Positions 35,391 through 49,485 of a stretch of 64,000 nt of DNA are shown here, piece by piece (the stretch's first letter is position 1; each line of letters begins with the position of its first letter). The stretch comes from Oscillospiraceae bacterium (lineage in GTDB: Bacteria > Bacillota > Clostridia > Oscillospirales > Ruminococcaceae). Where the stretch lies: positions 1 to 64,000 of the forward strand of contig JAGAJN010000022.1 in NCBI GenBank assembly GCA_017828975.1. The letters run 5' to 3'. The notes under the pieces were generated by a model that worked only from the letters and a program-made list of their open reading frames with translations, did not search any database and was not told where the DNA came from. The position numbers and the translations under genes are program-made.

Positions 35391-36974
35391 TTGAGGTCTG
35401 TCAGGAACAGGTTTGCTTTGGCAGCTGCTTTGATCGTGCTGTTTACTGCGATCGTAGTCGGCGGTATAAGCGTGTTGGATAAAAAATATTCTCATAAGGA
35501 GAGCCTTGGCACCAATCTTGGGCTGGAATGTCGTGTTAAGGCTGCGGAGCTGGATAAGCTGCTCTCGGATACAGAAGCCTCCGTAGAGGCCGCTGCAAAG
35601 GCTGCAGGAGAGCTTCTGACGGCGGGCTGTGATGCAGAGGACATCGGAAGGACCGCTGCCCGTATTGCGGAAAACACAGAGGCAACGGCGGTTTACTTTA
35701 TTTCGGACGACAGCTCTTGTTTGTATGCAAGAGAAGCCGCTGCAAAGGATCTGGAGAAAAAGAGCGGCATTACGCTGTCCAAATATGATAATAAGGACGC
35801 AAAGGGGCTTGTATGGTCTGCGCCCCACGAAAATTCGGACATTGGTCAGACTGTTATAAGCTGCGCCTTCCCGGTGTATAACGGAAGCAAGCGTGCTGGC
35901 GTTATCGGTGCCGATATTGATTTTCAGAGATTTTTTGAACGTGCAGACACCGTGCTTGACGGCGGCGGATTTGTTATGCTTGCAAATTCCGAGGGAAAGC
36001 TCCTTACAGAGGGCGGTCTGACCGATGACGAGGCAGACGTTTTTGCTTCGTCGGTTTCGGTGGGCAGACAGCCGGGAGAGCTTTTTGCCTGCAATGTGTC
36101 GGGGAAAAGCTATACATTCTGTCTGGGAGAGCTTTCGGGAAATATGCGGCTGGTTTACGCTGTTCCCGCTAAGGAGATCTCGGCAAAGGCTTCAAAACCG
36201 CTGGCTCTTTCGGGGCATATACTGGTGGTTGTTATGCTGACCATCGGCGGTGCGGCAGCTGCTGCGTATATTGCCGATCGGCATGTTATCCGTCCGCTGA
36301 GGGAGATGAACAACGCTATCAGAAGGATCTCCGACGGTGAGCTGGATACGGATATTTCCTGGCGTTCAAAGGATGAGTTCGGACTTTTTGCGGACGCTTT
36401 GCGCAAGGAAAGGGACAGCTTCCGCAAGAACAGCAGTCAGATAAACGATATTGCGTACAGAGATCCTCTGACAGGCGTCGGAAATTCTGCGGCATACCGT
36501 GAAGCTGTTATGAAGCTGAATGGAAAGATAAGGAAAAGTATCCCGAAATTTACCGTTATAGTGTTCGACATCAACAACCTGAAAAAGGTAAATGACAGTT
36601 ACGGACATAATTTCGGCGATATTCTCATTACCTCCGCAAGCAAGCTTATTCGGGAGACCTTCGAGCCTAACGGCATTTATCGTATAGGAGGCGACGAATT
36701 CTGCGTTATCCTTGAGGGCGATAATGCGGCGATGTACAATGAGCTTCTGAACGATTTTGCAAAGAGTATTGAGCGTTTCAACAATTCGGCGCAGGCAAGG
36801 CTGCCTGTTTCGGTGGCAAGCGGATATTCGCAGTATAATTCCGACGACGACAATTATATGAGCGTTTTCCGTCGGGCAGACAGTGCTATGTACAGTAACA
36901 AGGAAGAAATGAAGAGAACTATGGGTGACGGACTTCCCGAAAAGCGTCATTCCGACCTATTTAAGCCAATATAA
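35391..36974 (+). CDS. Membrane diguanylate cyclase (Cache-like/HAMP/GGDEF)
   Basis: Makes the second messenger c-di-GMP from two GTP. The 527-residue protein has a first transmembrane helix (about 9-27), an extracytoplasmic sensor of about 240 residues that looks Cache-like, a second helix (about 270-295), a HAMP region (to about 345) and a GGDEF domain with intact IGGDEF near residues 432-437. The RxxD inhibitory site usually five residues before GGDEF is absent. The start is TTG at 35391 after AAAGGGGG. It has its own terminator downstream. Confidence 0.9.
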   Translation: MRSVRNRFALAAALIVLFTAIVVGGISVLDKKYSHKESLGTNLGLECRVKAAELDKLLSDTEASVEAAAKAAGELLTAGCDAEDIGRTAARIAENTEATAVYFISDDSSCLYAREAAAKDLEKKSGITLSKYDNKDAKGLVWSAPHENSDIGQTVISCAFPVYNGSKRAGVIGADIDFQRFFERADTVLDGGGFVMLANSEGKLLTEGGLTDDEADVFASSVSVGRQPGELFACNVSGKSYTFCLGELSGNMRLVYAVPAKEISAKASKPLALSGHILVVVMLTIGGAAAAAYIADRHVIRPLREMNNAIRRISDGELDTDISWRSKDEFGLFADALRKERDSFRKNSSQINDIAYRDPLTGVGNSAAYREAVMKLNGKIRKSIPKFTVIVFDINNLKKVNDSYGHNFGDILITSASKLIRETFEPNGIYRIGGDEFCVILEGDNAAMYNELLNDFAKSIERFNNSAQARLPVSVASGYSQYNSDDDNYMSVFRRADSAMYSNKEEMKRTMGDGLPEKRHSDLFKPI

Positions 36975-38387: not shown

Positions 38388-39530
38388 ATGGCAGTTTATC
38401 TTGACAATGCTGCGACCACTAAGCCCTGTGAGGCTGCGGTCGAGGCGGTTATTAACAATATTACGCTGGATTACGGAAACCCGTCCTCGCTGCATAAGCT
38501 TGGACTCAAGGCTGAGGAGGTCATCAGAGAATCCAGAAAGGCGGTCGCTGCCGCTCTTGTCTGCGAGCCGGACTGCGTTTATTTCACCTCGGGCGCTACC
38601 GAAAGCAATAACACCGCTCTTTTCGGAATTGCCGCAAACTACGGAAAACGCCGCAAAAAGCTGGTCATCACCGCTGTGGAGCACTCTTCCGTGGCTGCCC
38701 CCGCAAAGCATCTGGAGGATATGGGCTACGAGGTTGTGCGGATATATCCCGATTCAAGCGGAGAGATCTCTGCCGATGAATTTATAGCCGCTGTTGACGA
38801 GAACACATTTATGGTTTCCTGTATGCTGGTGAACAACGAAACGGGAGCGATCCACCCCGTCAAGAGAATCTTTTCGGCGGTCAAGAGAAGCTTTCCCGAA
38901 TGTGTCACCCACTGCGACGCTGTGCAGGGATTTATGAAGATACCGTTCAAGGCTGCCGACCTGTGCGCAGACCTTATCACCGTCAGCGGACACAAGATAC
39001 ACGCCGTAAAGGGCGCAGGTGCGCTGTTTGTGAAGAAGGGGACAAGAGTTGCTCCGCTTATTTACGGCGGGGGACAGGAGAAGGGGTTCCGTCCGGGAAC
39101 AGAGTCGGTGCCGCTTATTGCTGCGTTCGGTGCGGCGGTGAATTCCATGCGTCCCGGAATAAAAACGGCGTATTCCAATGCGGAGGAGCTGAACCGTTAT
39201 CTTCGGAAAAAGTTGGAAAAGCTGCCGTTTGTTACCATAAATTCCCGTGCGGAGAGCATTTCCCCGTATATACTGAATTTTTCTGCGGAGGGCGTCCGCT
39301 CGGAAACCATGCTTCACTATCTGGAGTCCAATGAGATATATGTTTCCAGCGGTTCTGCCTGCTCAAAGGGCGCAAAAAGTCCCGTTATCGCCGCTATGAA
39401 GCTAAAGGACAGCCTTGCGGATTCGGCTCTGCGTGCATCGTTCAGCCGAATGACCACTTACGGCGACATTGATATGCTTGTTAAATATTTACAGTTAGGT
39501 TATGAAAGTCTTGCAAAAGTAAAAAGATAA
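38388..39530 (+). CDS. Cysteine desulfurase (NifS/IscS family)
   Basis: PLP enzyme that removes sulfur from cysteine and passes it as a persulfide. The 380-residue protein has the substrate region YLDNAATTKP at the start, PLP Lys203 in SGHKIHAVKGAG, and the catalytic Cys325 in SSGSACSKG. It is followed after 13 bases by thiI, the usual partner in Firmicutes, so it probably supplies sulfur for tRNA 4-thiouridine as NifZ does in Bacillus. There are no Fe-S scaffold genes nearby. Confidence 0.94.
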   Translation: MAVYLDNAATTKPCEAAVEAVINNITLDYGNPSSLHKLGLKAEEVIRESRKAVAAALVCEPDCVYFTSGATESNNTALFGIAANYGKRRKKLVITAVEHSSVAAPAKHLEDMGYEVVRIYPDSSGEISADEFIAAVDENTFMVSCMLVNNETGAIHPVKRIFSAVKRSFPECVTHCDAVQGFMKIPFKAADLCADLITVSGHKIHAVKGAGALFVKKGTRVAPLIYGGGQEKGFRPGTESVPLIAAFGAAVNSMRPGIKTAYSNAEELNRYLRKKLEKLPFVTINSRAESISPYILNFSAEGVRSETMLHYLESNEIYVSSGSACSKGAKSPVIAAMKLKDSLADSALRASFSRMTTYGDIDMLVKYLQLGYESLAKVKR

Positions 39531-39543
39531 AAGGAGCACATAA

Positions 39544-40713
39544 ATGAAAGAGATTTTTCTTCTAAAAGAGGGCGAGATCGCTCTTAAAGGTCTGAATAAA
39601 AGGAATTTCGAGGAGGCGTTCATCAAGAATCTGCGTCATCGTCTGAAACCCCTCGGAAAGTTTGAATACACAAGGGCGCAGTCGACCGTTTATGTAATTC
39701 CCGGTGAGGACGTGGACGTTGATGAGGCGTTTTCACGCTGCCGGAAGGTGTTCGGTGCGGCTGCGGTTTGCCGTGCGGCAGTCTGCGAAAAGTCCATGGA
39801 AAGCATTGCGGAAACGGCTGTGGAATATCTCGGAGATGAGCTGTCCTGCAAGAGGACCTTCAAGGTGGAAGCAAAGCGTTCCGACAAGCATTTCCCGCTG
39901 AAATCTCCCGAAATATGCGCAGAATTGGGCGGTATATTGCTTGATAAATTTACAAATCTTTCCGTAGATGTGAAAAATCCCGAAATAACCGTGACGGTGG
40001 AGATAAGGGACACCAACGCCTATGTTCACGCCGTAAGAGTAAGCGGCGCAGGCGGTATCCCCGTGGGAACCTCAGGCAAGGCTATGCTGCTGCTTTCGGG
40101 CGGTATTGACAGCCCCGTAGCGGCGTATATGATGGCAAAGCGGGGCATATGCGTTGAAGCGATACATTTTGCCGCACCTCCCTATACCTCCGAAAGGGCT
40201 AGGCTGAAGGTTGAGCGTCTTTGCGAAAAGCTGACGCCCTACTGTGGCGACATCAAGTTCTTCTGCGTTCCGTTCACGAAGATACAGGAGGCACTTCGGG
40301 ACAATTGCCCCGAGGAGCTGTTCACTATCATAATGCGCCGTCTGATGATGGAAATTGCTCAGCGAGTTGCCGCAAAGGAGGACTGCATGGCGCTTATTAC
40401 GGGAGAGAGTGTCGGTCAGGTGGCAAGCCAGACACTGGGGGCTATGGTCTGCACGGACGCTGCCTGCCGTATTCCCGTGTTCCGTCCCGTTATCGGTATG
40501 GATAAGACGGAAATTATCGAGATTTCCCGAAAGATAGACACCTTTGAAACGTCCATCGAGCCTTACGAGGACTGCTGCACCGTGTTCACGCCCAAGCACC
40601 CCAAGACACGCCCCATTCTGGAGGAGGTCGTCAAGGCACAGGAAAGCTTTGATTTTGAACCGCTTATCGCAGAGGCTGTGGAGAATACGGAGCTTAAAGT
40701 TATCAAATTATAA
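39544..40713 (+). CDS. thiI: tRNA 4-thiouridine synthetase ThiI
   Basis: Activates uridine 8 of tRNA with ATP and inserts sulfur; some family members also serve thiamine synthesis. The 389-residue protein has an N-terminal ferredoxin-like and THUMP part (to about 165) and a PP-loop ATPase with SGGIDSPVAAYMMAKRG near residue 183. The C-terminal rhodanese domain of the Escherichia coli protein is missing, as usual in Firmicutes. The paired cysteine desulfurase upstream would donate sulfur. Confidence 0.95.
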   Translation: MKEIFLLKEGEIALKGLNKRNFEEAFIKNLRHRLKPLGKFEYTRAQSTVYVIPGEDVDVDEAFSRCRKVFGAAAVCRAAVCEKSMESIAETAVEYLGDELSCKRTFKVEAKRSDKHFPLKSPEICAELGGILLDKFTNLSVDVKNPEITVTVEIRDTNAYVHAVRVSGAGGIPVGTSGKAMLLLSGGIDSPVAAYMMAKRGICVEAIHFAAPPYTSERARLKVERLCEKLTPYCGDIKFFCVPFTKIQEALRDNCPEELFTIIMRRLMMEIAQRVAAKEDCMALITGESVGQVASQTLGAMVCTDAACRIPVFRPVIGMDKTEIIEISRKIDTFETSIEPYEDCCTVFTPKHPKTRPILEEVVKAQESFDFEPLIAEAVENTELKVIKL

Positions 40714-40825
40714 TTATCTTGAATACAAATTGTATACGGGGGATTTACCGCGGGTAAAGAGATATACAAAACGTAAAATCAAACAACTGATATTTGTTAA
40801 AATCGACAATAAAACGGCTCAAAAC

Positions 40826-40854
40826 TTGACAAAACGGTTACAAAGTAGTATTAT
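40826..40854 (+). promoter_or_regulatory. Sigma-A promoter of sortase cluster
   Basis: Perfect TTGACA at 40826-40831 and TATTAT at 40849-40854, spaced 17 bases. Transcription would start near 40861, about 80 bases before the first sortase gene. No other promoter is obvious until the terminator at 47591, so the five genes may be one operon. Confidence 0.8.
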
Positions 40855-40940
40855 TAGATTATATAGAAACTGGGGGAGAAGTGTAACCTTTTGTCGGTTT
40901 TGCTGTTTTCTTACTGATTTTCTGCAAATGAGGTGAGCAG

Positions 40941-41912
40941 ATGGCAATGTCTAAATCCGCTCAGGCAGCTTACAAAAAGGCTGTCAAAGCGAAGAAAAAG
41001 AAAAAAAGAGGTCACTGGCTTCTTATACAAAAGGGTGACAGCTTCAAGGAGATAGTCAGCAAGATAATCACGCAGATAGCCTGTGTGGTGCTGGCAGGAT
41101 GTATTCTTATCCTCGGAAATGAGGCAAGGCTCATGCTTGCAAATTTCCGGCTGAATTCCTCCCTGCAGACTATTGTAAAGGATTTTTCCACCGTCGTTTC
41201 CGATGCTGTGGGCGGCGACAAGCTTACACCCGCTGCCGAAAAGCTTTTGCAGCTTAACCCCGATACGGTCGGCTGGGTAGTTATTGACGGCACAAATGTC
41301 AATCTCCCGGTTGTTCAGCGGAAAACTCCCGACGGAAATGAGTATTATCTTACCCGTTCCTTTGACGGTTCGAGCAATAAGGCGGGCACCATATTCCTTG
41401 ATTACAGAGCGACGCTTAATGCCAAGGAGCGTTCGGAAAATCTGGTGCTTTACGGGCATAATCAGCGGGACAAGTCAATGTTCGGCGACCTTGCTCAGTA
41501 TAAGCATAACATCGAATTTTACAAGGCGCACCCGACGGTGACCTTCTGCTCCAACTACCGCACGGACGTTTACAAGATATTTGCAATGTTCGTGACACCC
41601 GTCGAGCCTTATCAGACCAGCGACGGATTTATATTCGATTACCACAATTATATTAATTTTGATGATAACAGCGATTACGATACCTTCTATAATCTTGCGA
41701 TGGAACGCACTCAGATAATCACAGGCGTTGACATTAAGTACGGGGACGAGTTCCTGACGCTGTCCACCTGCAGCAATGAGTTTGAGCCGTCCAGATTTGT
41801 CGTTATCGCAAGAAAGGTCCGCAAGGGCGAGGACGCTTCCGTCGATACTTCGGCGGCGTATGTGAATCCCAACGCAAAGGAGCCTGAGTGGGACGTAATT
41901 TATGGCAGATAA
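40941..41912 (+). CDS. Class B sortase, paralog 1 (323 aa)
   Basis: Membrane transpeptidase that cleaves a sorting motif and attaches proteins to the cell wall or builds pili. A Lys-rich N-terminus and one transmembrane helix (about 41-60) precede the catalytic domain. His173 is in LYGHNQ, Cys277 in LSTCSNE and Arg285 in SRFVVIA, with a DYHNYINFDD segment typical of class B. Start ATG 40941 after AGGTGAG. First of four adjacent paralogs; no obvious substrate gene is next to it. Confidence 0.92.
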   Translation: MAMSKSAQAAYKKAVKAKKKKKRGHWLLIQKGDSFKEIVSKIITQIACVVLAGCILILGNEARLMLANFRLNSSLQTIVKDFSTVVSDAVGGDKLTPAAEKLLQLNPDTVGWVVIDGTNVNLPVVQRKTPDGNEYYLTRSFDGSSNKAGTIFLDYRATLNAKERSENLVLYGHNQRDKSMFGDLAQYKHNIEFYKAHPTVTFCSNYRTDVYKIFAMFVTPVEPYQTSDGFIFDYHNYINFDDNSDYDTFYNLAMERTQIITGVDIKYGDEFLTLSTCSNEFEPSRFVVIARKVRKGEDASVDTSAAYVNPNAKEPEWDVIYGR

Positions 41913-41924
41913 TGAGGTTAGTCT

Positions 41925-42914
41925 ATGTCCGAAAAAAAGAGCTTTGCTCAGCAGTTTATCCCTCAGAAAACCGATTCCGCTGCTGAGATAGTAAGAAAAA
42001 CAGCAGTGCTTATCATAGTCCCTGCGCTGCTCATTGTGGCGGCTGTTGTGGCTTTTCAGGCACTGAACGAGTACCGTGCGGCACAGCTTGACAAGGAGCT
42101 GGCAGAAAAGTACGAAAGTGCGGTCATTACGACTACTGCCGCACCCGAAACCGAAACTCTTCCGCCCGAAACGGAGTCCGAAACGACTACAACCGCACCT
42201 CCGCCGCTTGTTCCTCTGGCGCAGTTTGATGAATTTCTGGCGCAGAATCCCGATACGGCGGGCTGGATAACCGTCCCCGGGACGAACATCAACAATGTTG
42301 TAGTTCAGGCAGCCGACAATGATTACTATCTCGACAGGGATTTTAACGGAAACAAGTCACAGCCGGGAACTATCTATGCCGATTTCAGAGGCATTTTCAA
42401 CGACTATAACCAGTGCGACAACATCGTGCTTTACGGTCATAATCAGGCAAACGGCGCAATGTTCGGCACCCTGAAAAAATACAAGATCACCAAGCAGAAC
42501 ACATCGAATTTCAGCTTCTACAAGGAGCACCCGACCTTTAAGTTCTCCACCCTTTACGAGGAATACGAATATAAGATAATCGCAATGTTCGTTACCGAAG
42601 TAAACCCCGAACAGACAAGGGACGGTCAGATATTCGATTACCATAATTACATATATTTTGATGATAACGTGTGGAAGTACGATACCTTTATCGAGAACGT
42701 TATGGCGAGAACTGCCGTTGATACGGGAGTTGACGTGAACGAGGACGATAAGTTCGTGACACTTTCCACCTGCAGCAACGAGTTTGAGCCGTCCCGTTTT
42801 GTCGTTATCGGCAGACGTGTAAGAGATGGCGAGGACCCGTCTGTCGACACTTCTGCGGCTGTTCTCAATGAAGATGCCATTGAGCCCGATTGGAGCTACA
42901 TTTACAGCCGATGA
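41925..42914 (+). CDS. Class B sortase, paralog 2 (329 aa)
   Basis: N-terminal transmembrane helix (about 24-46), then a Thr/Glu/Pro-rich linker (68-95) and the class B catalytic domain with His172 (LYGHNQ), Cys283 (LSTCSNE) and Arg291 (SRFVVIG). The short cytoplasmic part KSFAQQFIPQKTDSAAEI resembles that of paralog 4, KSFTEMFIPLKTDSTN. Starts 12 bases after paralog 1 with a GAGG site. All catalytic residues are intact. Confidence 0.92.
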   Translation: MSEKKSFAQQFIPQKTDSAAEIVRKTAVLIIVPALLIVAAVVAFQALNEYRAAQLDKELAEKYESAVITTTAAPETETLPPETESETTTTAPPPLVPLAQFDEFLAQNPDTAGWITVPGTNINNVVVQAADNDYYLDRDFNGNKSQPGTIYADFRGIFNDYNQCDNIVLYGHNQANGAMFGTLKKYKITKQNTSNFSFYKEHPTFKFSTLYEEYEYKIIAMFVTEVNPEQTRDGQIFDYHNYIYFDDNVWKYDTFIENVMARTAVDTGVDVNEDDKFVTLSTCSNEFEPSRFVVIGRRVRDGEDPSVDTSAAVLNEDAIEPDWSYIYSR

Positions 42915-42929
42915 TTAGAGGTTATCCCT

Positions 42930-44939
42930 ATGTCTGATGATAAAAAGAACCGTAAGCTTACTGCCGAGGATATCCTTATGGAATTCAAGGATAAGCTTTC
43001 CGGTGAAACCGCCACCCCTCCTCCCGATATTCTTATCGGTGACGACGAGGACGCTATTACTGTTGAAGCAGGCAATGGGCTCTCCGAGGAACGCAGCGAG
43101 GAACTTCTGGAGGATACTCCCGTTGACCCCGATTTCGAGGACGACGGCGTTCCCGCCATTTCCCATGAGGAGGAAAAGCCTGTCGGGAAGGAGCCGCCCT
43201 GCGTATATGACCCCGACGAATATGAGCCCGACGAGATAGACCTTTTCACAGGATTTGATGAGATTGTTCCCGACCCGCAGGATATGGAGCTTTCTTCCGC
43301 TTATTTTGAGGAGGAAGGTGAAGCGTCCCCGAACGAAAAGGCGAACGATACCTCCGAGGGTGATGAAAAGGAAGGATCTCCCAAAAAGCATGGGCGAAAA
43401 AAGAAGGAAAAATCTCCCGAAAAGAAGAAAAGCAGCTTCAGAGACCTTTTCCCAAGGCGGGAGGACAGCGCTTTTGAGATAATCAGAAAGCTTGTGTTCC
43501 TGATTGCGGTTATCGTTTTTGTGGTAGCGGGAGTGATGCTGGCGGTCACGCTTATACAGTCCAAGAGGGCTGTTGACCTGAAAAATTCGCTTACCTCCGA
43601 GCTGGAACAGTTCGAGGTCAGCACGGTCACTTCCATTGACGAAAACGGTAATGTTATTGCCATCGAGCCTACTCAGGAGCAGCAGGATATTGCCGCCATA
43701 GATAAGCTCGAATACCTTAAGAGCAAAAATCCCAACACTGTCGGTTATCTTACCATCAGCGGTGTAGATGTTTACGAGCCTATTTTGCAGACGACGGATA
43801 ATTCCTATTATCTTACTCACGCATTTGACGGCACAGAGAATAAGGCGGGCGCAGTTTTCCTCGATTATCGGGCGGAAATAAGCGCTGACAGGCAGTCGGA
43901 TATGCTTGTCCTTTACGGTCACAACCAGCGGGACGGCACTATGTTCGGCAACCTGAAACAGTACAAGAGAAATGTGGATTTCTACAAGCGAAATCCTTTC
44001 CTTACATTTGAAACGGAGTACGGTTCACAGAAATATGTTATATTTGGATTTTTTGTGACCAATACTCTTGCTAAGCACGACAGCAACGGCGAGGTCTTCC
44101 ATTACCACGATTACCCCGAGCTTTACAGCGAGGAGGTTTACAGCTGGTACATGGGAGAGGTCGCTAAGAGAAACGAGATAATTTCTCCCATTGATGTTAC
44201 CTATGGGGATAAGTTCCTTGTGCTGTCCACCTGCAGCAACGAGTATTCAGGCTCCAGATTTGTCGTTATGGCAAGAAAGCTGCGTCCCGGCGAGTCTGTC
44301 AGCGAGATAGATGTTTCCGATACACAGCTGAACTACGGCTCTAACGAGATCGACTGGTACGCCATTACTTCCGATATTACCACCACTCTTGACAGCAGCG
44401 AAATTGAAAGCTCAATTCATCAGAGCATTGCCGATGAATGGTTTGCTACCATCGGCGAGGCGCTGGAGTCTATACACGGTTCAGATACCGAGGATTGGCA
44501 GAACACCGAGGGCGTTTCCGATACGGATATTACCGACAGTGACGGTACCTCCGCTGTTACCGAGCCGCCCGAGGACACGTCGGATACCGATGCGGAAACC
44601 GCTGTTCCCGAGGTCAGCGACAGCAGCACTTCCAATAGCGAGGATTCCGAAACGTCCGTGATGACCGATGAAAACGGCAGTGAGGTCACCGAGGTCCCCG
44701 TTACGGAGGACACAACGGTCACTTCAAGGACAGCCCCCGTCACCACAGGCACTACCGCTCCCGTGACAAGGCGTCCCAGTGCGCCTACCAGAAGGACTTC
44801 TGCGACGGTTACAGAAAGTGTTCCCCAGACTACCACGTCCCAGGCAGGTGAGGTCGAAACATGGCCTTCGGAAACCGAAAGTGCTGCCACAACAGTTCCT
44901 CAGACAGGCGGCAATAATAAAATGGGAAAAGCCGATTAA
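42930..44939 (+). CDS. Class B sortase, paralog 3, with acidic head and Ser/Thr tail (669 aa)
   Basis: Twice the usual length. Residues 1-180 are an acidic then Lys-rich cytoplasmic extension, a transmembrane helix lies at about 187-209, and the class B catalytic domain (about 255-450) keeps His331 (LYGHNQ), Cys435 (LSTCSNE) and Arg443 (SRFVVMA). Residues 455-669 form a low-complexity extracellular tail rich in Ser, Thr, Asp and Pro. The C-terminus ends with VPQTGGNNKMGKAD, where VPQTGG resembles a sortase sorting motif although no hydrophobic anchor follows. Starts 15 bases after paralog 2. Confidence 0.92.
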   Translation: MSDDKKNRKLTAEDILMEFKDKLSGETATPPPDILIGDDEDAITVEAGNGLSEERSEELLEDTPVDPDFEDDGVPAISHEEEKPVGKEPPCVYDPDEYEPDEIDLFTGFDEIVPDPQDMELSSAYFEEEGEASPNEKANDTSEGDEKEGSPKKHGRKKKEKSPEKKKSSFRDLFPRREDSAFEIIRKLVFLIAVIVFVVAGVMLAVTLIQSKRAVDLKNSLTSELEQFEVSTVTSIDENGNVIAIEPTQEQQDIAAIDKLEYLKSKNPNTVGYLTISGVDVYEPILQTTDNSYYLTHAFDGTENKAGAVFLDYRAEISADRQSDMLVLYGHNQRDGTMFGNLKQYKRNVDFYKRNPFLTFETEYGSQKYVIFGFFVTNTLAKHDSNGEVFHYHDYPELYSEEVYSWYMGEVAKRNEIISPIDVTYGDKFLVLSTCSNEYSGSRFVVMARKLRPGESVSEIDVSDTQLNYGSNEIDWYAITSDITTTLDSSEIESSIHQSIADEWFATIGEALESIHGSDTEDWQNTEGVSDTDITDSDGTSAVTEPPEDTSDTDAETAVPEVSDSSTSNSEDSETSVMTDENGSEVTEVPVTEDTTVTSRTAPVTTGTTAPVTRRPSAPTRRTSATVTESVPQTTTSQAGEVETWPSETESAATTVPQTGGNNKMGKAD

Positions 44940-44971
44940 CGATAGAAATATTTTTAAAGTGAGGGTTCACA

Positions 44972-46018
44972 ATGGCAATGGCAGATGAGGTCAGCGGCGC
45001 TAAATCAAAGCCCGCGGCAGCTCAGAAAAAAAAGAAGAAAAGCTTTACTGAGATGTTCATTCCGCTTAAAACGGACAGCACAAACACAGTCATTGCCAAG
45101 TGCATAACGCTTCTGGCTCTGCTGGCAGTCATTGTCTGCGGTATTGTGCTTATCTGCTATTTTGCGGAGATGATAGAGTCAAAAAATCTCCAGAGCGAGA
45201 TAAGCTATATCTACAATCAGTCGGGCAGTGCGGAGGTCACTCTGCCCGCTGTAACGGAGCCTGCGCAGCCCGGTGACACCGATGAACCCGAGGTCAGAGT
45301 ACCGAAGCCCATCATGCCCAATGCACAGGAGCTTCTTAACATTAACCGGGACACTATCGGTTACGTCCGTATACCCAACACGCATATTGACGGTGCTGTT
45401 GTTCAGAGGAAATCCGAGGACGGAAACGAATATTATCTTAATCACAATTTCAAGGACAAAAAAGCACAATGCGGCACCATTTTCCTGGATATGCGCTGCA
45501 CGCTTACCGATTATGAGCAGTCGGATAACCTTATCCTCTACGGTCATAATCAGGCGGACGGCACTATGTTCGGCGAAATGGACTATTACAGGTGGGATTA
45601 CAATTATTACAAGAAGAATCCGCTTATCTACTTCAACTCCAACTATGAGGAGGGAGTTTATAAGATAATCTCTTCCTTTGTGGTAAATGTTGAGCCCGAG
45701 CATGACAACGGAAATGTCTTTGATTATCATAACTATATCAACTTCAATGATGAATATTCTTATGATACCTTCATAGATGAAATCACCAAGCGAAGCACTA
45801 TCATTACAGGTACCGACGTAAATGAGAACGATAAGTTCCTGACGCTTTCCACCTGTTCCACAGAATGGGAGCCGTCAAGGCATGTTATCGTTGCGAGAAA
45901 GGTCCGTCCCGGCGAAAGCACTGAGGTGGATCTGTCGCTGTTCAGCATCAACCCGAATCCCAAGTGGCCCGCTATATACTATAAGTACAATGGCGGAACA
46001 TATATTGAAGAAGAATGA
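44972..46018 (+). CDS. Class B sortase, paralog 4 (348 aa)
   Basis: Lys-rich N-terminus, one transmembrane helix (about 41-65), a Pro/Glu-rich linker (87-115) and a class B catalytic domain with His192 (LYGHNQ), Cys295 (LSTCSTE) and Arg303 (PSRHVIVARK). The position after Arg is His rather than Phe as in the other three, a small difference in the active-site strand. Start ATG 44972 after GTGAGGG; a second ATG at 44978 is also possible. Confidence 0.9.
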   Translation: MAMADEVSGAKSKPAAAQKKKKKSFTEMFIPLKTDSTNTVIAKCITLLALLAVIVCGIVLICYFAEMIESKNLQSEISYIYNQSGSAEVTLPAVTEPAQPGDTDEPEVRVPKPIMPNAQELLNINRDTIGYVRIPNTHIDGAVVQRKSEDGNEYYLNHNFKDKKAQCGTIFLDMRCTLTDYEQSDNLILYGHNQADGTMFGEMDYYRWDYNYYKKNPLIYFNSNYEEGVYKIISSFVVNVEPEHDNGNVFDYHNYINFNDEYSYDTFIDEITKRSTIITGTDVNENDKFLTLSTCSTEWEPSRHVIVARKVRPGESTEVDLSLFSINPNPKWPAIYYKYNGGTYIEEE

Positions 46019-46058
46019 CCAATCGGCACAAAGTGCATTGAAAGGAAGTTTGCTGTTT

Positions 46059-47573
46059 ATGGAACATAAGTCAAGACTTGGCACTATTGCTGCGGTATGC
46101 GCAGTAGCGGCGTTCTTTACATTTGCAAACTGTATGGTTGGGGAGCTTGATGAAATCTCTCCCGATTACGGTGCTTATGAGAATATGGAAAACGATGTCC
46201 CCAGGGCAGAAGCGGAGGTAAATACCGAGGTACCGCAGGAGACAGATAAGCTTTATACGGAAGCGGATATTACCGAGGAAACGGAAGCAGCTGTTATTAC
46301 AGAGGAGAAAACTCAGAGCAGTACCGAGGCTCCCGAAAGTGAACCTGTTATCCCTTCGGAAATGTCCTCTGCGGAAACCGAGGAAGAGCTTCCCGAAACC
46401 GAGCTTGAAACACAAGCCCCCGAAACTGAGGCTCCCGATGTCGAGATCATCACCGAGGATATGGCTGATGACAATGCGGTTACCGAAAGAGAGTATGAGT
46501 CCCCCCTGGAGGAAAGTGCTCCCGAGGGCGAGGACGCTGTCCCCGTAAAGCCCTATGCGGAAAGAGCGGAGGTTGAGATCATTACTGCGGTCACCACGTC
46601 CGTTCCCGAAACATCTTTCTATCAGACCGAGGCACTGACTGCCTACGATATACCCAATGATGTTGAGTATATGCCGTTTACAGAGGACGAGGTAGCTGTG
46701 CCGTCCGATCCCTTTGATGATGTGGATTACGGCTTTGACTATTTCCCCGAAACTACCGCTCCCACAGAAACCGAAGCTCCCGAGGTGACCGTTCCTGCGG
46801 TGAATTATGCGGAAACTCTTACGGTAAGGGCTAACGGTTCGACTGTCACCCTTGACGCTTACACAATGGTATGCAAGATAGTTGCAAATGAGGTGTCCAC
46901 AAGGTTTAACGACGAAGCTATCAAGGCACAGGCAGTTGCGGCGTATTCCTATGTAAAATACAACAACATTCACGGTCAGTATCCCGATGTGCTGCTGGCA
47001 AATACAGTTCCCGACAAGATCGCTAACTGTGTTTCCGCTGTATGGGGAAAGACCTGCTACTATAACGGCGATGTGGCTCTGTCCTGTTACAGTGCGTCCT
47101 CTGCGGGTGCAACGGCTTCCTCCGTAAATGTATGGGGCGGCGCAAGACCTTATCTGGTAAGCGTTGACTGTCCCTTTGATGCGGGAAATGACCCCAACTA
47201 CGGGCTGACTATGACCATGAGTGAGAGCGACGTCAGATATTATCTGGAGCGTTATCTTGGAACTCAGCTCAGCGATGATCCCGAAAACTGGCTGGTCGTA
47301 TCTTCCAAAATCGACGGAAATTATGTCGGAACGGTGACTGTTGACAATGCTTATACTGTTACGGGCAGACAGCTGAGAGAGAATGTTTTCGGTTACAAGA
47401 TCCGTTCCGCAAGCTTTGATATTTCTTACTCAAACGGCTATTTCACCTTCACCACATACGGCTACGGTCACGGTGTCGGCATGAGCCAGAACGGTGCGAA
47501 TATTCTCGCCAATATGGGTTATGACTATGTTCAGATACTCAAATATTATTTCACGGGAATTACCGTTGCATAA
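46059..47573 (+). CDS. SpoIID/LytB-domain protein with acidic linker (504 aa)
   Basis: Secreted or membrane-anchored. The N-terminus MEHKSRLGTIAAVCAVAAFF is a signal or anchor helix; an acidic Glu/Thr/Pro-rich linker (about 30-240) precedes the SpoIID-type domain (about 255-504). Motifs include EAIKAQAVAAYSYVKY, SCYSASSAGATASS and GYGHGVGMSQNGA, as in SpoIID peptidoglycan lytic transglycosylases and LytB amidase enhancers. The start is ATG 46059, with GAAAGGAAG upstream. Following four sortases by 40 bases, it may open or remodel the wall for sortase products. Confidence 0.85.
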   Translation: MEHKSRLGTIAAVCAVAAFFTFANCMVGELDEISPDYGAYENMENDVPRAEAEVNTEVPQETDKLYTEADITEETEAAVITEEKTQSSTEAPESEPVIPSEMSSAETEEELPETELETQAPETEAPDVEIITEDMADDNAVTEREYESPLEESAPEGEDAVPVKPYAERAEVEIITAVTTSVPETSFYQTEALTAYDIPNDVEYMPFTEDEVAVPSDPFDDVDYGFDYFPETTAPTETEAPEVTVPAVNYAETLTVRANGSTVTLDAYTMVCKIVANEVSTRFNDEAIKAQAVAAYSYVKYNNIHGQYPDVLLANTVPDKIANCVSAVWGKTCYYNGDVALSCYSASSAGATASSVNVWGGARPYLVSVDCPFDAGNDPNYGLTMTMSESDVRYYLERYLGTQLSDDPENWLVVSSKIDGNYVGTVTVDNAYTVTGRQLRENVFGYKIRSASFDISYSNGYFTFTTYGYGHGVGMSQNGANILANMGYDYVQILKYYFTGITVA

Positions 47574-47590
47574 ACATCTGCAAACTAAAT

Positions 47591-47624
47591 AACCCCCGAG
47601 ATCTGCATATCTCGGGGGTTTTTT
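47591..47624 (+). terminator. Intrinsic terminator of sortase-SpoIID cluster
   Basis: Perfect 12-bp stem (47591-47602 with 47609-47620), loop CTGCAT, followed by T-run. It marks the end of the five-gene block. Confidence 0.92.
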
Positions 47625-47640
47625 CAAAGGGGGCATTTCA

Positions 47641-48945
47641 ATGAATATGTACGAGATCATCACCAAAAAGAAGCGGGGCGGTGAGCTTAACGGCGAGGAG
47701 ATAGCTTTTTTTGTCAAGGGCTATGTGGACGGGACGATCCCCGACTACCAGGCGGCGGCGCTGGTCATGGCAATATGGTTCAACTCTATGACCGAGCGGG
47801 AAACTGTTCTGCTGACACAGGAAATGGAACATTCGGGGGACATTCTCAGTCAGTCGGTGGACGGCTTCACTGCCGACAAGCACAGCACAGGCGGCGTTGG
47901 GGACAAGACAACGCTTATTGTGGGACCGATTGCTGCGGCGTGCGGGATATTTGTCCCCAAAATGTCGGGGAGAGGTCTGGGACACACAGGCGGCACCATC
48001 GACAAGCTGGAGTCCATTCCCGGGTTTAACACGGCGCTGTCTGCGGAAAGGTTTGAGGAGATAGTCCGTGACTGCGGATTTGCTATTGCGGGACAGACGG
48101 GAAAGCTTGTTCCCGCGGATAAGAAACTGTACGCTTTAAGGGACAGCATCTCAGCCGTGGATAGCATTCCGCTTATCTGTTCAAGCATTATGAGCAAAAA
48201 GCTGGCAACGGGCGCTGACGGCATTGTCCTTGACGTAAAAACGGGGGACGGCGCATTCATGAAGTCTTATGACGACGCTGTGAAGCTGGCGGAGCTTATG
48301 GTCAAGACCGCCAAAGCAGCGGGACGAAAATGCTCGGCGGTCATCAGCGATATGGAGCAGCCTCTCGGAATGGCTGTGGGAAACTCGCTGGAAGTCATCG
48401 AAGCCTTAGAAACGCTCAAAGGCAGGGGAGAAGCAAGGCTGCGTGAGCTGTCCCTGACACTTGCGGCGGAAATGCTGCTTCTGTCCGGCAAGGGGACAGC
48501 CAAGGAGTGCCGAAAAGCCGCAGAGGAAGCACTTGACAGCGGCAGTGCCATTGATGTTTTCCGTCGGACCGTGAAGGCTCAGGGCGGAGATACCAATGTT
48601 TTTGACGATTACGGGAAATTCCCACGGGCAGCGGCTGTTACGGAGGTAAGGTCGTCGGAAAGCGGATATATCACCCACATTCACTGCGAGGAAACGGGGC
48701 TTATTGCCTGCTCTCTCGGTGCGGGACGGACGGAGCTTGGCGGAAGGATTGACAGCACAGCGGGCATAGTATTTTCGAAAACAGTCGGTGATCATGTTGA
48801 AAAGGGCGAAGTCCTCGGTCGGCTTTACAGCTCGTCCGCCGACGAAAAAACCACCGCTGAGGCTGTGGCGAGATTTTCCGAGGTATTCACATTTTCACAC
48901 GAAAAACCCATACAGATGGAAATCGTCAGAAAAATATTAAGATAA
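47641..48945 (+). CDS. pdp: Pyrimidine-nucleoside phosphorylase
   Basis: Cleaves thymidine, uridine or deoxyuridine with phosphate to the base and pentose 1-phosphate. The 434-residue protein starts MNMYEIITKKKRGGEL, contains DKHSTGGVGDKTTLIVGP and MSGRGLGHTGGTIDKLESIPG (both phosphate/substrate loops), and a C-terminal alpha/beta domain. It is the Firmicutes Pdp type, close to DeoA. AAAGGGGG precedes the ATG right after the previous terminator. Confidence 0.94.
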   Translation: MNMYEIITKKKRGGELNGEEIAFFVKGYVDGTIPDYQAAALVMAIWFNSMTERETVLLTQEMEHSGDILSQSVDGFTADKHSTGGVGDKTTLIVGPIAAACGIFVPKMSGRGLGHTGGTIDKLESIPGFNTALSAERFEEIVRDCGFAIAGQTGKLVPADKKLYALRDSISAVDSIPLICSSIMSKKLATGADGIVLDVKTGDGAFMKSYDDAVKLAELMVKTAKAAGRKCSAVISDMEQPLGMAVGNSLEVIEALETLKGRGEARLRELSLTLAAEMLLLSGKGTAKECRKAAEEALDSGSAIDVFRRTVKAQGGDTNVFDDYGKFPRAAAVTEVRSSESGYITHIHCEETGLIACSLGAGRTELGGRIDSTAGIVFSKTVGDHVEKGEVLGRLYSSSADEKTTAEAVARFSEVFTFSHEKPIQMEIVRKILR

Positions 48946-48971
48946 TTTTTGAATTTTTTTGGCAAAAAGTC

Positions 48972-49000
48972 TTGACAAAATTGAAAAGCTATATTATAAT
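48972..49000 (+). promoter_or_regulatory. Sigma-A promoter of zinc-ribbon protein gene
   Basis: TTGACA at 48972-48977 and TATAAT at 48995-49000, spaced 17 bases, both perfect. Confidence 0.9.
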
Positions 49001-49041
49001 CATAATATACAATGTATAATATACTATCAGGAGGTATTATT

Positions 49042-49485
49042 ATGGGAATGTTCGATAAAATCAGCAAAACTCTCACCGACGCAGGAAAAACAGCCGCAGA
49101 AGCAGGCAAGGACGCTGCAGAAAAGGCAAAAACCTTTGCCGAGGTGACAAAGCTCAATCATCAGATCTCACAGTGTGAGTCCAGAATGAGAGATGCTTAT
49201 GTTTCTATCGGAAAGAAATTCTATGAGGATAACAAGCATATTTCCGGTACCGATTATGACGATTATTTTGTTCAGATCGCTAACGAGAATATGAGCATCG
49301 CATCTCTGCGCAGCCAGATCTCCCAGCTTAAGGGCATCTTCTACTGTCCTGCTTGCGGTGCGGAAAATTCTATGGAAAACATCTACTGCTGCAAGTGCGG
49401 TGCAGGCGGTATCAGACCCGAGCAGCCCGCAGAAAACGAGGAAGTTGATCCTGCCGATGTTTCCGTTGAGGATACAAAGGAATAA
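49042..49485 (+). CDS. Small coiled-coil zinc-ribbon protein (147 aa)
   Basis: Not functionally recognised. An Ala/Lys-rich amphipathic helix (about 5-40, TDAGKTAAEAGKDAAEKAKT) leads into a helical stretch, then a C-terminal zinc ribbon with CPACGAE and CCKCGAG. Proteins of this plan are common and uncharacterised in Firmicutes. ATG 49042 follows a perfect AGGAGGT; strong promoter and terminator suggest a monocistronic, well-expressed gene. Confidence 0.7.
   Translation: MGMFDKISKTLTDAGKTAAEAGKDAAEKAKTFAEVTKLNHQISQCESRMRDAYVSIGKKFYEDNKHISGTDYDDYFVQIANENMSIASLRSQISQLKGIFYCPACGAENSMENIYCCKCGAGGIRPEQPAENEEVDPADVSVEDTKE

Follow-up and report, generated by a model that had tools for sequence, protein, structure and literature searches.

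An array of four class B-type sortases and a SpoIID-domain protein in an Oscillospiraceae bacterium and its relatives: a probable in-trans surface-anchoring block

Why would a bacterium keep four sortase genes in a row, and why would the row end in a gene for an enzyme of a glycan-cutting type? The question is raised by a window of 64,000 nucleotides (the whole stretch of DNA analyzed; positions 1 to 64,000 of contig JAGAJN010000022.1, assembly GCA_017828975.1) from an Oscillospiraceae bacterium that is placed in the Ruminococcaceae. Four open reading frames (ORFs) for class B-type sortases lie head to tail at 40941-46018, with intergenic gaps of 12, 15, and 32 nt, and are followed by a gene for a protein with a SpoIID/LytB domain. 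It appears probable that this block is a lineage-conserved machine acting in trans, in which specialized sortases are coupled to a glycan-cutting SpoIID-type enzyme to anchor secreted proteins to peptidoglycan. The sortases are called s1 to s4 in gene order; G, L, and C numbers denote sampled genomes, examined loci or stretches, and contigs, respectively.

All four ORFs carry the Pfam Sortase domain (PF04203) above its cut-off. Among NCBIfam models, TIGR03064 for class B matches each of them best, with 153.5, 132.6, 141.2, and 140.4 bits for s1 to s4 against a cut-off of 153.75. Fifteen distinct PDB sequences match s1, and 12 of them bear the name sortase B or peptidase C60B; the remaining three are BA4783, Lmo2181, and a hypothetical exported protein. 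The catalytic residues His173, Cys277, and Arg285 (s1 numbering here and below) are at least 95% invariant at each of the four positions in 39 arrays, and all four proteins are likely to be active as sortases. An apparent loss of the catalytic His in s4 was rejected: the regular expression [YF]GH missed it in nine of the 39 arrays, but alignment reads YAH in eight of these and YSH in one, so that the His is kept and the Gly varies. The Pfam model finds sortases nowhere else in the genome (2.57 Mb, 94.7% complete); these four are the only ones.

How widespread is the array? A profile made from the catalytic domains of s1 to s4 was run against 100 genomes, each from a different genus of the family, and matched 66 at E <= 1e-40. 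Twenty stretches, 19 of them around sortases, were taken together with 66 further loci, which gave 85 sortase loci. Of the further loci, 65 are titled as metagenome-assembled genomes, and all are named Ruminococcus, Oscillospiraceae, Clostridia, or Clostridiales. At 59 of the 85 loci the first sortase lies well inside the stretch and SpoIID is the next profiled gene; sortases number four in 40 of these, three in 11, two in 7, and one in 1. The other 26 loci are incomplete or do not have SpoIID next. Once eight places that were duplicates by coordinates and lengths had been removed (L050=L166, L051=L112, L052=L113, L053=L147, L054=L124, L055=L160, L056=L158, L059=L173), there were 39 non-redundant four-copy arrays with all four ORFs whole, the window included, and the order s1-s2-s3-s4 is constant among them. 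SpoIID comes next in 38 of the 39, again with the window included; in L113 the contig ends first. Recurrence in 38 non-redundant loci indicates that the five-gene block is not a product of chance.

An earlier note on this DNA, made from its letters alone, had described four head-to-tail class B sortases with intact His, Cys, and Arg and a SpoIID gene at the end, a description that is borne out. It had also supposed a single conserved system and called for a search of relatives, which gave the 38 five-gene loci; gene order is kept, and SpoIID adjoins or is fused to a sortase in relatives. The opposite picture, of scattered genes each beside its own substrate, was not seen in four-copy relatives. 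At three loci, whose genomes belong to one sample series, an extra gene for a protein of ~350 aa with an N-terminal hydrophobic span is interposed between s1 and s2 (L123:2658-3713, L126:2721-3761, L157:8894-9988); the L123 copy, the one scanned, has no Pfam match.

Are the four sortases products of recent tandem duplication? In a FastTree tree of 156 catalytic domains from the 39 arrays, the sequences sort exactly by position into four groups of 39 (s1, s2, s3, and s4), with local supports of 0.999-1.0. Six four-copy genomes were included in a tree of 53 domains under a fuller model, which gave supports of 100/100 for s3, 100/99 for s4, 100/100 for four-copy s2, and 86/76 for s1. Two three-copy genomes, G102 and G114, also have their s1 in the s1 group of this tree; their second sortases stand near s1 and not with s2. 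A second fuller-model tree, with 62 rows, is in agreement, as all 20 four-copy rows fall on one side of a 100/99 branch, a count that leaves out six G102 and G114 rows on the same side. The separate position groups in the three trees rule out a recent tandem duplication, and the check that the earlier note had proposed is thus negative. Arrays of other lineages have duplications of their own (G080, G121, G110, G028, G006, and G020; G016 and G119; G065 and G069), and a reading of the midpoint-rooted tree suggests that copy number at the locus rose independently at least three, probably four times.

The four positions also differ in their residues, with 23 position-specific alignment columns in the 39 arrays. 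In s4, W281 (92%) and H286 (100%) replace F281 and F286, and both flank Arg285. Diagnostic residues of s3 include C118 (90%), D236 and Y249 (100%), and those of s2 include V123 and G290 (92%). Judged by these alignments and trees, the four sortases are ancient and distinct and split early. Ancient separate groups, each with diagnostic residues of its own, point to a division of labor among the sortases, as had been supposed before.

How close is the tie between sortase and SpoIID? In 15 of the 66 genera the two stand in one open frame, and in 32 more SpoIID is found on the same strand, no more than 3.5 kb downstream. These counts are lower bounds, as a subset of the SpoIID matches was compared with the sortase matches; in G022, G102, G010, G070, G092, and G124 the sortase or SpoIID match is close to a contig end. 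Twelve long-frame loci were examined, and eight proved to be sortase-SpoIID single frames; in G098 a separate SpoIID gene comes next. The Pfam sortase domain is found in all eight fusions, whereas Pfam SpoIID passes in five (G033, G076, G103, G067, G034) and the other three are recognized by a SpoIID profile of our own. A CinA-type domain of some kind, not always above cut-off, is present in seven of the eight and is not listed in G087. Every fusion has one predicted membrane span, located between the N-terminal part and the sortase core, so that sortase and SpoIID should be outside the cell and CinA inside. The catalytic Glu of SpoIID is present in all eight fusions and in all of the eight separate SpoIID proteins. 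In G108, a CinA-sortase single frame has a separate SpoIID gene beside it. Single frames of the CinA-sortase and CinA-sortase-SpoIID kinds stand at L231-L236, L239, L242, L068:4362-7127, L244, L246, and L247; the sortase-SpoIID frame of G103 is L235:2894-6247, on the minus strand.

Outside the family but within the order, 20 stretches of 15 genomes were examined. There thiI, in three cases with nifS too, occurs with CinA and a sortase in G039, G044, G050, and G058. CinA and sortase are one ORF in G039, G050, and G058, and SpoIID comes next only in G050. Fifteen of the 20 stretches have a sortase without thiI, nifS, CinA, or SpoIID as neighbors, and one stretch gave no match.

The SpoIID/LytB domain of the protein in the window is recognized by TIGR02669 (121 bits against a cut-off of 83.3) and by PF08486 (30.2 against 23). 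Its score with TIGR02870, the equivalog of sporulation SpoIID, is 140.8 bits, below the cut-off of 234.75. The catalytic Glu was found by alignment to a SpoIID of the PDB and is invariant in the 39 array SpoIIDs aligned (of 48). In common with sporulation SpoIID, in which this Glu is E101 in C. difficile (PMC6221140), the protein thus has the domain and the catalytic residue. It differs by a long linker, a locus that is not a sporulation locus, and a single frame with sortases in relatives. The stretch that probably holds the zinc loop in C. difficile is also shorter here: in the phmmer alignment, 38 residues of the PDB chain and 11 of this protein stay unaligned at about that place, a comparison of the region and not of single ligands. 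The zinc ligands H134, C140, H145, and C146 are described as exclusive to C. difficile SpoIID and are not a general requirement (PMC6221140). The genome has two further SpoIID-domain genes. In the best SpoIID-family match elsewhere in the genome (L069, G000 C32:3140-3418), Gln seems, by eye, to stand at the position expected for the catalytic Glu (LAQMPADY).

Where, then, are the substrates? No sorting signal was seen by eye in the neighboring genes read (38388-49485), and profile matches lie on C36 and C9, with none on C10. In the whole genome the LPXTG model gave 14 matches at E up to 10. Four of these are credible; they are small ORFs in tandem on C36, whose N-termini resemble signal peptides and whose C-termini are of the kind APATGNASAAAIVAVMAVAGAAAVISKKRG. 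The remaining ten have no PxTG motif in the C-termini examined, and several are matches internal to a protein. The NPQTN-type model TIGR03063 gave three matches at E up to 10, none above cut-off. A profile built from five signals finds seven ORFs with PxTGN-type signals, six on C36 (54146-58550) and one on C9, and so adds three candidates to the four. P.TGN is common to all seven and P[AT]TGN to six; the seventh signal, SPDTGN, is weak (E 1.1e-4) and belongs to a very small ORF. The lack of substrates that the earlier note had implied therefore does not hold for the genome as a whole, and the PxTGN proteins are likely substrates of the array.

The same profile has matches in 16 of 19 relatives at E <= 1. 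A search of both strands by regular expression gave 32 rows, some of which are one protein twice, and a 121-aa ORF of G108 that ends in ...TPTR is probably false. Two types of signal emerge: type 1 has the form NPxTGN[AS]PIALAVIPVALAAAAVVAKK, and type 2 the form xPATGN...VMAVAGAAA...KKRK. Different motifs for the four sortases were one possibility that the earlier note had raised; motifs do differ, but they are two and not four, and no result ties either to a sortase. The distribution of both types was surveyed in 47 genomes, 39 four-copy (one with s4 cut by a contig end) and 8 three-copy (one cut in the third sortase); 19 of the 66 further loci were not used, because they were partial, came from genomes already present, or belonged to other lineages. 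Type 2 occurs at E <= 1e-3 in all 39 four-copy genomes (1-11 matches; best E <=1e-6 in 38) and in two of the eight three-copy genomes, with one weak match each (5e-5, 1e-4). Type 1 occurs in 46 of the 47, usually twice, in a frame of roughly 90-150 aa and in a frame of about 390-900 aa.

Apart from a signal peptide, a linker that is acidic or rich in Ala and Thr, and a sorting signal, the short type-1 proteins examined contain very little. The variable X of NPXTGN was compared between short and long protein in 23 genomes with both noted; it is identical in 20 of these pairs and differs in G127, G129, and G139. Shuffles gave a mean of 4.3 identical pairs, and none of 20,000 reached 20. Nineteen of the pairs came from the signal survey and four were entered by hand (G170 is the genome of G117). 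The short protein, a conserved 'minimal substrate' of about 90-150 aa whose signal matches that of one long surface protein, is seen at L049:7937-8245 (G000 C36) and in relatives. In L175:4699-10123 the next gene after the long type-1 candidate encodes a solute-binding protein whose match to CBM35 is sub-threshold, and two ORFs with the look of ABC permeases come after it.

How might such a block work? Substrates encoded elsewhere would arrive at the membrane bearing a C-terminal PxTGN-type signal. A membrane-tethered class B-type sortase would cleave the signal after its Thr, as C. difficile SrtB is known to do (PMC4155245), and would join the protein covalently to peptidoglycan. The SpoIID-type enzyme, beside the sortase or on the same polypeptide, would cut glycan strands at or near the anchoring site and thereby open or trim the wall for placement of the product. 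C. difficile SpoIID acts only after the SpoIIP amidase (PMC6221140), and so an amidase may be needed here too. Four-copy lineages would divide anchoring among non-redundant sortases with fixed roles, plausibly on two kinds of signal, with type 1 ancestral and type 2 tied to the four-copy array.

The sortase s3 would contribute an inner docking segment and an outer linker. From N- to C-terminus it has an acidic N-terminus, a hydrophobic span, the catalytic domain, and a ~190 aa extension rich in Ser, Thr, Glu, and Pro. The acidic segment, which presumably lies inside the cell, bears the motif LTAEDILMEF, and YTVDDILxEY or similar is found in many relatives. The idea that this motif is a general localization tag was dropped, as its profile gives a significant match in the genome only to s3 itself (window 42930-42990). 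Look-alikes at N-termini occur in an ABC-2 exporter (YTIEDILKEY, E 0.03; L188) and a YceG-like protein (DDILEEH, E 1.4; L190), and a third profile match (E 0.05) is internal to its protein. A role of s3 as its own substrate was also rejected. Its C-terminus (...VPQTGGNNKMGKAD) resembles a sorting motif without a membrane tail, but the same-genus copy ends in ...AAQTDVIKGN, and no other s3 C-terminus among those examined keeps the motif. A bolder version of the proposal is possible but doubtful. In that version, sortases and SpoIID work as a single unit, with glycan cutting at the point where a protein is being attached, four sortases serve two signal classes with the minimal substrate as partner or competitor, s3 docks the machine through its inner motif, and relatives make the whole as one CinA-sortase-SpoIID polypeptide.

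Could the four sortases instead be redundant housekeeping enzymes, kept as copies for dosage or for different conditions, with overlapping substrates? The near uniformity of the signals in the genome would fit, as would the repeated growth in copy number at the locus in several lineages. However, redundant copies would hardly be expected to keep one order in all 39 arrays and to fall into four groups by position, marked by diagnostic residues of which two flank the catalytic Arg, and the single shared predicted promoter speaks weakly against separate regulation. Redundancy is unlikely. Another possibility is assembly of a pilus or surface polymer, in which some class B sortases would polymerize subunits, type 2 forming the shaft and type 1 the base or tip, and other class B sortases would link the polymer to the wall. 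Pilus loci with several sortases are known, and the type-2 genes stand in tandem with a small type-1 protein heading the cluster. However, the candidates examined have long Ala/Thr/Pro- or acid-rich linkers ahead of the signal, and long linkers in this place are typical of single wall-spanning proteins. The substrate genes lie outside the sortase locus, and no Pfam pilin domain was found in the six own-genome candidates scanned, in which no search for a pilin lysine motif was made. Even though the class B sortase Spy0129 can polymerize pilin (PMC3019223), pilus assembly seems quite unlikely.

Several observations weigh against an anchoring machine with a coupled SpoIID enzyme. No result links a given signal to a given sortase, and two signal types fail to explain four sortases. 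The proline of PxTGN is missing in 11 of 18 type-2 profile rows (e.g., ATATGN), which is unusual for a sortase motif; it is kept in all signals of the genome itself. The type-2 profile was trained on four-copy genomes only and favors them, and the match of X between short and long proteins may stem from gene conversion between both genes, with shuffles that ignore kinship. Among the matches compared, 19 of the 66 genera have no linked SpoIID, although several of these end at a contig edge. The long-frame stretches of G063, G023, and G092 lack SpoIID, although G063 and G023 do carry a fusion at a different locus. The fused sortases examined form one clade, with G108 as sister, and the SpoIID fusion may have a single origin. 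Finally, nifS, thiI, deoA, and cinA, none of which has an obvious link to anchoring, are stable neighbors as well, and CinA is itself fused to the sortase; neighborhood and fusion may therefore partly reflect history. Taken further, this would mean that the SpoIID gene, an old gene of sporulation type, is a syntenic passenger that plays no part in anchoring. A passenger would not readily explain the single open frames with a sortase in 15 genera, or a linkage that persists in L109, L110, L112, and L138, where profiles find no nifS or thiI ~8 kb upstream. Nor does it fit well with a TIGR02870 score so far below the sporulation cut-off or with two other SpoIID-domain genes in the genome, and it is very unlikely. 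The coupled anchoring machine is still the probable interpretation.

How does the block compare with known systems? SrtB of S. aureus and B. anthracis and SrtB of C. difficile share with the enzymes here the Sortase domain, the His-Cys-Arg residues, and the N-terminal hydrophobic span. The signals here are PxTGN, and none passes the NPQTN-type model, unlike the NPQTN-type substrates of class B enzymes. NPQTN substrates are not universal in class B, because seven proteins with (S/P)PXTG signals are the predicted substrates of C. difficile SrtB (PMC4155245). However, C. difficile has one sortase, against four fixed paralogs here, which share a predicted operon with SpoIID. Mediterraneibacter gnavus is a gut Firmicute with six srtB genes (SrtB1-6), at least two of distinct function: SrtB3 is associated with superantigens and SrtB4 with capsule (PMC13121745). 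The earlier statement that class B sortases usually occur singly was thus too strong. In M. gnavus, unlike here, candidate targets lie near the sortase genes, and neither a tandem array nor a SpoIID gene is described in the available part of that report (PMC13121745). The streptococcal pilus sortase Spy0129 is likewise a class B enzyme with a role other than NPQTN anchoring (PMC3019223), but it acts on pilins whose genes are co-located, and no such genes stand beside the array. The scaffoldins Sca2 and Sca5 of Ruminococcus bromii are surface proteins of a gut Ruminococcus with C-terminal sortase signals (PMC5814915, PMC9112005); the likeness is one of description, and no sortase gene is named for them in the available parts of these sources. 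Class B sortases, SpoIID enzymes, sorting signals, and several specialized class B sortases per gut bacterium are already known. The fixed four-paralog array, its coupling to SpoIID, and the sortase-SpoIID and CinA-sortase-SpoIID single frames were not met in the literature searched, which mostly excluded subscription journals, and no report of a sortase/CinA/SpoIID fusion was among the matches listed. The minimal substrate was not met in the same literature, in which no search was aimed at it.

The layout of the locus is given in the table below. A consensus scan turned up both the shared promoter and the shared terminator that the earlier note had claimed, as predictions only, and the five genes may be cotranscribed. 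The scan placed the hairpin on the minus strand; its reading as a plus-strand terminator was made from the sequence. The ORF of the SpoIID gene opens at 45990, within s4. Its start is probably the ATG at 46059 behind GAAAGGAAG, which better matches the family consensus, and the gap between s4 and SpoIID is then probably 40 nt despite the overlap of the ORFs. By profile search, the synteny of the upstream cysteine desulfurase and thiI genes and the downstream deoA-like gene is kept in relatives. In L051, L053, and L054 there is an overlap of 4 nt between the SpoIID gene and the deoA-like gene, which may thus be co-transcribed, in contrast to the window, where the terminator-like hairpin stands between the two.

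Table. Predicted features of the sortase-SpoIID locus and neighboring genes (positions in the window)
Feature	Position	Strand	Remarks
Presumed diguanylate cyclase ORF	35391-36974		GGDEF-like YRIGGDEF; probable from this motif
Presumed cysteine desulfurase gene	38388-39530	+	upstream neighbor; name assumed from the sequence
Presumed thiI	39544-40713	+	upstream neighbor; name assumed from the sequence
Predicted sigma-70-type promoter	40826-40854	+	TTGACA-17-TATTAT, 11/12 against consensus; consensus-scan prediction only
Sortase 1 (s1), class B type	40941-41912	+	323 aa, hydrophobic span at N-terminus
Sortase 2 (s2), class B type	41925-42914	+	329 aa
Sortase 3 (s3), class B type	42930-44939	+	669 aa
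Sortase 4 (s4), class B type	44972-46018	+	348 aa
SpoIID/LytB-domain protein	46059-47573	+	hydrophobic span, long linker, SpoIID domain with catalytic Glu
Terminator-like hairpin	47591-47620		12 bp, GC-rich, 3' of SpoIID gene; prediction only
Presumed pyrimidine-nucleoside phosphorylase-like gene (deoA)	47641-48945	+	downstream neighbor; name assumed

What would such a machine mean for the bacteria that carry it? If the proposal is true, protein anchoring would be tied directly to cutting of the wall, two steps that are usually treated separately. The presence of sortase and SpoIID in one protein turns this into a physical hypothesis that is open to test on one purified protein, and the four conserved paralogs with two signal classes offer a natural experiment on sortase divergence. 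The bacteria concerned are a large uncultured group of the gut and rumen, in which binding to fibre and to the host is decided by the cell surface.

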